Source of the DNA: an uncultured Alteromonadales bacterium | Lineage (GTDB): Bacteria; Pseudomonadota; Gammaproteobacteria; Pseudomonadales; Cellvibrionaceae | Direction: 5' to 3' | NCBI GenBank assembly: GCA_937864365.1 | Contig: CALMJT010000040.1 | Span: 1 to 64,000 of the forward strand | Length of the DNA: 64,000 nt | Translations under genes and position numbers: made by a program | Shown: positions 2,259 to 59,561 of the stretch, piece by piece | Layout: the number at the start of each line of letters is the position of its first letter | Numbering within the stretch: position 1 is the first letter of the stretch | The notes under the pieces: generated by a model | The model's database searches: none | What the model saw: only the letters and a program-made list of their open reading frames with translations | What the model was told of the DNA's origin: nothing

Positions 2259-2413
2259 AGGAGCCTCTGATTAACTCATCCATGATTTCATCAGAGGGCA
2301 GACATTGAAAATGCGATTTCTAATTTCTTCACAATTCCAACCATTTACCGTTCTTGAAATTGGTGATACATCCTTGTGTCACAGGAAACTCTAGGTTAAT
2401 CAGAGTTTCCTCT
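2259..2413 (+). repeat. Interspersed ~150-bp multi-hairpin repeat, copy R1 (forward)
   Basis: aggagcctctgattaac...gttaatcagagtttcct termini; internal attgaaaatgcgatt, ttaccgttcttgaaattgg and gatacatccttgtgtcac motifs shared with the other copies. Confidence 0.9.
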
Positions 2414-2865: not shown

Positions 2866-2974
2866 TCCACCAAAGCCAATTCCCCAGTTTTCAATACTAC
2901 ATTAACCTGCTTGCCAAACGTTGATTGCGGTCAAGTACGTACTAAGCATTTAGAGATTTTTAAATCCAGTATAG

Positions 2975-3015
2975 TAACCTCTAATTAAACTATGAATGAG
3001 TTAATCAGAGATTGC
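2975..3015 (-). repeat. Solo left-hairpin (H1) fragment of the repeat family
   Basis: taacctctaattaaactatgaatgagttaatcagagattgc; resembles the reverse complement of the H1 terminus. Confidence 0.6.
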
Positions 3016-5071: not shown

Positions 5072-5226
5072 TGGAATCGCTAATTGACTCATCCATGAAT
5101 GAATCAGAGGTTAGAAATTGAAAAAGTGATTTCCAACTTCTGTACAATTTCAGTCACTTACCGTTCTTGAAAGTGGCGATACATCTCTGTGTGGCGGGAA
5201 ACTCTAGGTTAATCAGAGTTTCCTCT
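5072..5226 (+). repeat. Multi-hairpin repeat copy R2 (forward)
   Basis: tggaatcgctaattgactcatccatgaatgaatcagagg...cgggaaactctaggttaatcagagtttcctct. Confidence 0.88.
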
Positions 5227-6551: not shown

Positions 6552-6680
6552 AGGAATTGATCATGCCTATCACGTCAATTACAAGAACGGTAAGTGATTG
6601 AAGTTGTGAAGAAATTGGAAATCACATTTTCAATTTCTGCCCTCTGATTAAATCATGGATGAGTTAATCAGTGGTTCCTA
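6552..6680 (-). repeat. Multi-hairpin repeat copy R3 (reverse, shortened on its H4/H5 side)
   Basis: caattacaagaacggtaagtgattgaagttgtgaagaaattggaaatcacattttcaatttctgccctctgattaaatcatggatgagttaatcagtggttccta. Confidence 0.88.
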
Positions 6681-15050: not shown

Positions 15051-15095
15051 AGGAAGCTCTGATTAACTCATCCATGATTTAATCAGAGGTTCCTA
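15051..15095. repeat. Solo palindromic H1 mini-element of the repeat family
   Basis: aggaagctctgattaactcatccatgatttaatcagaggttccta between two convergent genes. Confidence 0.85.
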
Positions 15096-19631: not shown

Positions 19632-19800
19632 CGGGAAATTTTGATTAACCCATTCATGATTTAATCAACAGTCAGAAATTGAAAAGGCGATGTTCAATAT
19701 CGTTACCATTTCATTCATCGACAATACTCAGTGTTGGCAACTCAGTGTTGGCAACTCATTGTTGGATTGCTGATACACTGGGTTAATCAGCGTCACCTTT
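19632..19800 (+). repeat. Divergent multi-hairpin repeat copy R4 with internal 14-bp tandem duplication
   Basis: gggaaattttgattaacccattcatgatttaatcaacagtcagaaattgaaaaggcgatg...actgggttaatcagcgtcacctttc; 14-bp units at 19726-19765. Confidence 0.7.
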
Positions 19801-27036: not shown

Positions 27037-27189
27037 AGGAAATTCTGATTGCCTAGAGTTTCATGTGGTACAAGGATGTGTCGCAAATTTCAAGAGCTGT
27101 AAGCGATTGAAGTTGTGAAGAAATTGGGAGTCGTATTTTCAATTTCTGTTCTATGATTAAATCATGGATGAGTCAATCAGAGGCTCCAA
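27037..27189 (-). repeat. Multi-hairpin repeat copy R5 (reverse), urtE-side boundary of the defence island
   Basis: aggaaattctgattgcctagagtttcatgtggtacaaggatgtgtcgcaaatttcaagagctgtaagcgattgaagttgtgaagaaattggg...gagtcaatcagaggctccaa. Confidence 0.9.
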
Positions 27190-36751: not shown

Positions 36752-36901
36752 TAAGAATCTCCGATTAACTAATCCATGATTTAATCAGGTGGTGGAAATG
36801 GAAAAATGCAAGTTACTAAATTCTTTATTTTTATTTACAAATTATTGTAGTTGGTGGCTGCAGCCCTGTGTTACTAAAAACAGGGCTAATTAGAGTCTTT
36901 T
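36752..36901 (+). repeat. Divergent multi-hairpin repeat copy R6 (forward) between the R-M operon and helicase operon
   Basis: aagaatctccgattaactaatccatgatttaatcaggtggtggaaatggaaaaatgc...agccctgtgttactaaaaacagggctaattagagtc. Confidence 0.7.
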
Positions 36902-40904: not shown

Positions 40905-41059
40905 TAAGAAACTCTGATTAACCTAGAGTTTCTTGTGACACAAAGATGTGTCGCCAATTTCAAAAACGGTAAGTGATTGAAATTGTGAAGAAATTGGAAA
41001 TCGTATTTTCAATTTCTGTCCTCTGATTAAATCATGGAGGAGTTAATCAGAGGTTCCTA
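40905..41059 (-). repeat. Multi-hairpin repeat copy R7 (reverse), GDPD-side boundary of the defence island
   Basis: aagaaactctgattaacctagagtttcttgtgacacaaagatgtgtcgccaatttcaaaaacggtaagtgattgaaattgtgaagaaattgg...gttaatcagaggttccta; close to consensus. Confidence 0.92.
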
Positions 41060-42750: not shown

Positions 42751-42900
42751 AGAAGCTTTGATTAAAATGATTATTTTAATCAGGAGGTGGAAGTTGAAAA
42801 TTCGATTTCCAATTTTTCACAATTTCAATCAATCATCGTTCTTGACATTAGTGACACATCCTTGTGTCAATGAAAACTCTGAGTTAATCAGCGCTTTCTA
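42751..42900 (+). repeat. Multi-hairpin repeat copy R8 (forward), overlapping the DUF1244 stop codon
   Basis: agaagctttgattaaaatgattattttaatcaggaggtggaagttgaaaattcgatttcc...gtgacacatccttgtgtcaatgaaaactctgagttaatcagc. Confidence 0.88.
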
Positions 42901-45256: not shown

Positions 45257-45458
45257 TTTGATAAAATTTGAGCTCTTTTCCTAAAGGGCGAGGCCGATTT
45301 TATGAATCTACTCGTAACGCTTAGTCAACTCAACTCATATTAATCGGCATGTATTTCTACATCTAAGCCTACAATAACCCGTGTGTTAAACACTAGGTTT
45401 TATTGTAGTCAGGTCTCATCAAATTTTTTCGGTGTTATTCGACCCGCGACGAACTAAC

Positions 45459-45611
45459 GAACTTCTGATTAACTCCTCCATGATTTAATCAGAAGACAGA
45501 AATTGACAATGCGATTTCCAATTTCTTTACAATTTCAATCACTTACCGTTCTTGAAATTGGCGGCACATCCTTGTGTCACCGGAAACTCTAGGTTAATCA
45601 GAGTTTCTTTG
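45459..45611 (+). repeat. Multi-hairpin repeat copy R9 (forward)
   Basis: gaacttctgattaactcctccatgatttaatcagaagacagaaattgacaatgcgatttccaatttctttacaatttcaatcacttaccgttcttgaaattggcggcacatccttgtgtcaccggaaactctaggttaatcagagtttct. Confidence 0.92.
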
Positions 45612-47360: not shown

Positions 47361-47399
47361 GAGTAGACTTATAGATTAATGGTTCGGTCTTTTTTATTG

Positions 47400-47570
47400 A
47401 GCAATTTCTGATTAACTCATCCATGTGATTAACTCATCCATGATTTAAGCAGAAGGCAGAGTTTGACAACGCGATTTCCAATTTCTTCACAATTACAATC
47501 ACTTACCGTTCTTGAAATTGGTGACACATCTTTGTGTCGTGGGAAACTCTGGGTTAATAAGAGTTTCCTT
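47400..47570 (+). repeat. Multi-hairpin repeat copy R10 (forward) with 17-bp tandem duplication in H1
   Basis: tgattaactcatccatg duplicated exactly at 47409-47425 and 47426-47442; remainder close to consensus to gagtttccttt. Confidence 0.9.
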
Positions 47571-54351: not shown

Positions 54352-54405
54352 AAGAGCCTGTGATTAATTCGCCTTTGATTTAATCACAGTGCAGAAATTA
54401 AAAAT
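54352..54405 (+). repeat. Solo H1 repeat fragment in the nirB-nirD gap
   Basis: agagcctgtgattaattcgcctttgatttaatcacagtgcagaaattaaaaa; perfect CTGTGATTAA/TTAATCACAG arms. Confidence 0.8.
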
Positions 54406-54999: not shown

Positions 55000-55151
55000 T
55001 AGGAACTGCTGATTAACGTATCGATGACTTATTCAGAGAGCAGAACTTAATAATGGGATTTCCAATCTATTCATAACTCAATCCTTTGCCGTTTTTGATG
55101 TTGGCGACACATCTTTGTGTCACTGAAAACTCTAGGCTAATCGGTTTTTTG
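55000..55151 (+). repeat. Multi-hairpin repeat copy R11 (forward), moderately diverged
   Basis: taggaactgctgattaacgtatcgatgacttattcagagagcagaacttaataatgggatttccaatc...ttggcgacacatctttgtgtcactgaaaactctaggctaatcgg. Confidence 0.85.
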
Positions 55152-59183: not shown

Positions 59184-59418
59184 GATAAATCCAACGCAAA
59201 AAATACAGTCGCCAGTATAACAAAGACGCTTCTTTACGTCTGTGAGCGATTTGTTGTCACTAATAGCTTATGGCTTCTAATAGCTATCTATAATGTTTTT
59301 CTTTCCAGATTCAAACTAGTTTTTTGCAACGGTAAATTTGTAAAGGCTATGGATTTAACGAACGCTGCCGCTAGAGGTGTCGAGCTGAAGAAACCACCTC
59401 ACCGTTGAAACATTTTCG

Positions 59419-59561
59419 AATTATCCAGAGTTTTTCGCGACTCAATTACGCGTCGCTGACTTCTGCAACAGTAAGTGATTGAAATTGTGAAGAAATTGGA
59501 GACCACGTTGTCAATTTCTGCTTCTTGATTAAATCATGGATGAGATAATCGGAGGCTCTAA
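59419..59561 (-). repeat. Multi-hairpin repeat copy R12 (reverse), diverged on its H4/H5 side
   Basis: ctgcaacagtaagtgattgaaattgtgaagaaattggagaccacgttgtcaatttctgcttcttgattaaatcatggatgagataatcggaggctcta. Confidence 0.85.

Follow-up and report, generated by a model that had tools for sequence, protein, structure and literature searches.

A repeat copy at positions 45459-45611 of the window (the whole stretch of 64,000 nucleotides that was analysed) had been annotated from its letters as a chain of five stem-loops, suggesting a structured RNA or cruciform DNA. The question raised by this locus is what kind of element carries these hairpins, and whether they belong to an RNA, to mobile DNA or to both. 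The stretch is indeed a repeat copy, here called R9. What the initial annotation left out is its identity as a transposable element, with terminal inverted repeats, 4-bp duplications and matching IS5-family insertion sequences (ISs). With a probability of about 0.9, we assign the element to the type II non-autonomous MITEs of the IS5 family, moved in trans by the transposase of an IS of the same genome. It represents a previously unrecognised and unusually abundant family of a known element class, the bacterial MITE.

Boundaries and fold of the R9 copy

The true ends of R9 are at 45458 and 45608 (151 bp; profile match E 2.9e-48). Its parts, all on the + strand, are the following.

45458..45608, +, R9, complete 151-bp MITE copy (profile match and five-hairpin fold)
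45458..45473, +, left terminal inverted repeat, CGAACTTCTGATTAAC (consensus GGAACCTCTGATTAAC)
45462..45495, +, hairpin H1, left terminal repeat paired with the adjacent inverted copy of itself, arms CTTCTGATTAA...TTTAATCAGAAG
45498..45526, +, hairpin H2, AGAAATTG...CAATTTCT
45530..45560, +, hairpin H3, CAATTTCAA...TTGAAATTG
45561..45580, +, hairpin H4, GCGGCACA-TCCT-TGTGTCAC (consensus GCGACACA-TCCT-TGTGTCGC)
45582..45608, +, hairpin H5, GGAAACTCT...AGAGTTTCT, formed by the right terminal repeat and its inverted copy in subterminal position
45593..45608, +, right terminal inverted repeat, GTTAATCAGAGTTTCT (consensus GTTAATCAGAGTTTCC)

The + strand RNA of R9 folds into exactly five consecutive hairpins (-43.7 kcal/mol, z -6.4), and so does the - strand (-46.7 kcal/mol, z -4.4); none of 200 shuffles matched the stability of the R9 fold. 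The five stem-loops were thus recovered on both strands, with the stems at the positions first given for them. Several of the stem letters quoted at that time are those of the family consensus and not of R9 itself, as in H1, in H4, whose stem in R9 contains mismatches, and at the terminus, where R9 reads AGAGTTTCT. The H1 and H5 hairpins exist because the terminal repeats adjoin inverted copies of themselves. No terminator-like site or T-run was found at R9, in agreement with the view that H5 is not part of a conventional terminator, and a search of the whole window against Rfam returned no family at gathering score.

The 151-bp element has no coding capacity, with stops in all six frames. Around R9 lie moeA, a gene whose 255-aa product has no match in Pfam, a moaB-like gene and moaA. 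The order moeA - 255-aa protein - moaB - moaA is conserved in a genome of the same genus, where the site is without the element; in this empty-site comparison the intergenic DNA is too diverged for alignment of the junctions.

An abundant family with terminal repeats and 4-bp duplications

Full copies mostly measure 150-151 bp. They start with GGAACCTCTGATTAAC and finish with GTTAATCAGAGTTTCC, which form a terminal inverted repeat of 15-16 bp. Besides R9, the window contains the following copies.

2260..2410, +, full copy, TCTA duplication on both sides
5073..5223, +, full copy, decayed duplication
6568..6678, -, truncated copy, model positions 1-111
15052..15093, +, 42-bp palindromic mini-copy, terminal repeats only, TATA on both sides
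19634..19796, +, old full copy
27038..27187, -, full copy
36755..36898, +, old decayed copy
40907..41057, -, full copy, near consensus
42752..42897, +, old full copy
47401..47568, +, full copy, 17-bp internal tandem duplication near the left end
54354..54405, +, fragment
55002..55145, +, old copy
59418..59558, -, old copy

The 17-bp tandem duplication of the copy at 47401-47568 is TGATTAACTCATCCATG and spans window positions 47394-47452. Palindromes of about 42 bp, with little beyond the two terminal repeats, were seen at 15052-15093 and 2974-3015 of the window and at L033:1434-1475. Some of these forms carry perfect 4-bp duplications, and the ~42-bp form may be close to the minimal mobile unit.

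An exact 4-bp direct duplication flanks 35 of 45 young copies. Among 77 copies with good ends, 65% have a 4-bp duplication, compared to 12% with shuffled flanks, and none has a 5-bp duplication. The most frequent target tetranucleotides are TATA, TTTA, TTAA, TCTA and TATT. Terminal inverted repeats combined with exact 4-bp duplications are the mark that a DDE transposase leaves on insertion.

The abundance of the family was estimated with a profile derived from copies that are nearly identical. In 850 kb of the genome, taken as stretches, the profile found 155 copies (182 per Mb), which cover 2.2% of the sampled DNA. Extrapolation from this sample to the 4.72 Mb genome gives an expected total of ~860 copies; the 725-767 candidates of a first look at the genome are consistent with this estimate, and the terminal sequence has 375 exact matches in the genome. 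The same-genus genome contains only a handful of diverged copies and shares almost none with this one. The expansion of the family is therefore recent. Plasmid and phage records gave no match to the element. Many contigs (C12, C58, C119, C131 and others) terminate within the MITE or the IS, and these repeats largely explain the fragmentation of the assembly.

An IS5-type partner for the element

An IS of the same genome begins with GGAACCTCTGATTAACC, a terminal repeat common to the MITE. The genome carries at least 13 ends of this IS. Its left end (GGAACCTCTGATTAACCTCCGAGATCTGCC...) is present at 14 sites, nearly all of them contig ends. The corresponding right end (GGAACCTCTGATTAACCTAAAAATATTTAG...) is found at a contig edge, with the end of a DDE_Tnp_1 transposase ORF ~130 bp away. 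The flanks of the IS ends are of the same style as those of the MITE (TATA, TTTA, TAGA), and a short palindrome is found just inside the terminal repeat. Contigs stop ~50 bases inside the IS ends, as expected for a multi-copy IS that short reads do not bridge. No intact transposase of the matching IS was recovered in the draft assembly, which yielded its ends and 56 C-terminal residues; this fragment matches PF01609. Four other DDE_Tnp_1 transposases of the genome were considered as partners and rejected, being without the ends of the element.

A complete relative is present in another genome of the family. This 1154-bp IS has TATA on both sides, ends in GGAACATCTGATTAACC and GGAACCTCTGATTAACC (given also as GGAACA/CTCTGATTAACC) and encodes a 318-aa transposase of the IS5 family (NF033581, E 1.5e-105). 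IS5-type relatives at a greater distance occur in Rhodanobacter; their ends read GGATGCTCTGATYWATT. As far as it is readable, the IS interior is unrelated to that of the MITE, so the element is a type II MITE in the sense of PMC10969869, and it is the ends by themselves that suggest a common descent of MITE and IS.

The element thus has the traits by which bacterial MITEs are defined: a length below 500 bp, no coding capacity, terminal inverted repeats, target duplication and ends in common with an autonomous element. Its derivation from the IS5 family is indicated by the partner transposase: the full relative matches the IS5-family model NF033581, and the 56 residues available from its own genome match PF01609. 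A high copy number, intergenic location and palindromic structure would equally describe a REP/BIME moved by a RAYT (Y1 tyrosine) transposase. However, long terminal inverted repeats and 4-bp duplications are absent from REPs, and the ends that match are those of an IS5 insertion sequence of the DDE type. This identity, contradicted by the target duplications and the DDE partner, was rejected as extremely improbable.

Mobilisation in trans by the transposase of the related IS is most likely, judging from the sequences. An IS5-type transposase would recognise the shared end GGAAMCTCTGATTAAC and, acting in trans, insert the 151-bp element into T-A-rich targets of 4 bp, which it would duplicate. 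H1 and H5 each join a terminal repeat to an inverted copy of itself, and H2-H4 are further palindromes from the interior of the source element. Active source copies were probably selected for their palindromes, for instance through end recognition, strand exchange or persistence. After insertion, copies would decay, mostly without keeping their pairs; those that are transcribed would add hairpins to mRNA ends and might incidentally affect decay.

Two arrangements of IS ends were observed at contig termini. In L075 and L068 (start of contig C60), the right end of a MITE is followed by its TATA flank and, directly after it, by an IS left end, the junction reading CAGAGTTTCCTATA and then GGAACC; this is an insertion of the IS at the MITE's own duplication. 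In L063 (end of contig C32), two IS right ends lie in direct tandem, 29 bp apart, and it looks as if one copy had inserted into the end of another.

Decay of the hairpins and covariation between copies

The initial annotation held that each full copy can fold in this way. The family consensus does so on the - strand, where the optimum is five tandem hairpins (-60.6); on the + strand, the optimum is a multibranch structure closed by pairing of the terminal repeats (-53.9). When copies were binned by age, RNAalifold found a fold common to copies less than 5% diverged and practically no common structure in copies more than 15% diverged. Pooling 98 copies gave no RNAalifold consensus structure, because the old copies have decayed. 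The claim therefore holds for young copies and not for old ones.

Covariation across the genomic copies had been named beforehand as part of a test that could refute the structure. Using custom-written tests, distinct from R-scape, on 98 distinct full copies, we found no base pair with significant covariation under a tree-based null. The compensatory cells numbered 97, compared to 77 ± 12 under this null. When stems were considered separately, H1 had 26 compensatory changes versus 15.8 ± 3.1, above every age-matched shuffle, and H2-H5 were at the null level of these shuffles. The H1 excess is mild, and H1 is the sole stem to show any. The paired fraction was 0.855, compared to 0.842 in column shuffles, a null that ignores relatedness and age; this excess was rejected as evidence of covariation, being mostly removed by the tree-based and age-matched tests.

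Other measures point to a constraint on the stems. In each age class, stem columns are less variable than loop columns of matching base class. Compared to a consensus mutated at random positions, diverged copies gain 3-9 kcal/mol in folding stability; their gain over a column-preserving control is just 1-3 kcal/mol, or about one to two standard errors. The lower variability of the stems suggests that active source elements have probably been selected to retain their palindromes, and that inserted copies decay, their structure fading with age. The difference in rate between stems and loops fits selection on the source and selection on the inserted copies alike.

These data bear on what the palindromes do. 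The chain of five may tentatively be a component of the mobile element that is under selection, such that sources with five hairpins out-transpose or out-survive others. If this is true, the MITE carries a structural module beyond its terminal repeats, either hairpins in the DNA of its ends or an RNA with a protective effect, which would help to account for its unusually high copy number. A rather doubtful alternative has the hairpins act as DNA, as cruciforms or single-strand end hairpins recognised in transposition or by a nucleoid protein. It would suit the origin of H1 and H5 in the terminal repeats themselves, the duplications borne by 42-bp elements with little beyond two ends, the excess of compensatory change in H1 alone and the short palindrome that lies just inward of the repeat at the IS ends. 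IS5-type DDE transposases, however, would be expected to use double-stranded ends as substrates; moreover, the internal stems H2-H4 lack a compensatory signal, and the only near match to an IHF-like site is a single weak one.

Compensatory changes and perfect stems can also arise without selection, since template-switch repair of quasipalindromes creates and restores perfect stems (PMC8794818). Such repair, an alternative account of the H1 signal, acts on any palindrome and would affect H1 and the pairing of the terminal repeats alike; both are in small excess. H2-H5 are palindromes too, but paired double changes are not in excess there, and we regard this origin as unlikely.

Genomic context and a possible role in RNA

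All long copies are intergenic: none of 99 lies inside an ORF of 80 codons or more. The median distance of copies to gene 3′ ends is 76 nt, compared to 184 nt for 5′ ends, and 24% of copies, versus 17%, lie between convergent genes, a slight excess. In tandem contexts there is no preference of orientation relative to the genes (28 same, 34 opposite).

The 3′ proximity and the convergent-gene excess would be in line with an RNA module kept by the host, whose hairpins in mRNA 3′ regions block exonucleases or are cleaved by RNase III. The very stable folds on both strands and the lower variability of stems than loops point the same way, and RNase III has substrates among known MITEs, NEMIS/Correia for example (PMC10969869, PMC2229807). 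Against this stand the lack of significant covariation under the tree-based null, the indifference to orientation, the loss of common structure in copies more than 15% diverged and the near absence of copies in common with the same-genus genome. The 3′ bias is also expected from the loss of promoter-damaging insertions. Such patterns of position and orientation are expected if harmful insertions are lost, and they do not support a strand-specific RNA role; we consider a host-kept module quite improbable.

With the element assigned to the mobile IS5-type MITEs, its hairpins are mainly a feature of mobile DNA; they do not demonstrate a dedicated regulatory RNA. Of the two suggestions made at the outset, the strong fold and the cruciform-capable palindromes stand; a dedicated RNA function is unsupported, covariation included, and incidental effects on mRNA ends are possible.

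Relation to known elements

The closest relatives by their ends are IS5-family ISs of the NCBIfam NF033581 group, which have in common with the MITE a terminal repeat GGAA-x-CTCTGATTAACC and a 4-bp duplication. These ISs, found in the same genome and family, carry a transposase, whereas the MITE is geneless and has a different interior. The 4-bp MITE targets (mostly TATA, TTTA, TTAA and TCTA) are mostly TWTA/TTAA and agree just partly with the YTAR reported for E. coli IS5 (PMC10359306).

The Correia/NEMIS elements of Neisseria are similar in size (107 and 155 bp, near the 151 bp of the MITE) and are likewise intergenic, with terminal inverted repeats, long and short forms and a high copy number; their transcripts form stem-loops (PMC2229807, PMC10969869). 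The MITE differs in its 4-bp duplication and in having many more copies; the sequences were compared through Rfam only, with no match. RNase III cleavage and IHF binding have been shown for Correia/NEMIS and, by analogy, MITE copies may be cleaved by RNase III or may protect 3′ ends.

The ERIC elements of enterobacteria are also short, palindromic and intergenic, with hundreds of copies, but they have other ends and hosts, whereas the MITE has an IS5-type partner in its own genome. QMITE1 and QMITE2 of Coxiella burnetii resemble it, by their description, as bacterial MITEs with stable folds. QMITE2 measures 150-190 bp and lies mostly 3′ of genes; its duplications are longer and variable (7-11 nt), compared to 4 bp in the MITE, and QMITE1 and QMITE2 together make up ~0.9% of the Coxiella genome (PMC5896051), compared to 2.2% here. 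A single MITE family thus represents ~2.2% of the genome, with a copy count within range of the highest reported for ERIC in the literature consulted, 711 (PMC10969869).

The family has many young copies, clear duplications, minimal forms of 42 bp and a partner of IS5 type that can be identified, which makes it a good natural system. It is suited to asking what the spread of a bacterial MITE requires, and whether the hairpins play a part in movement or in host mRNAs. In a genome of another genus of the same family, 23 bp of the H4 hairpin (GCGACACATCCTTGTGTCGC region) are matched exactly, without the rest of the element (L134, G130:C1:1695630-1695652).
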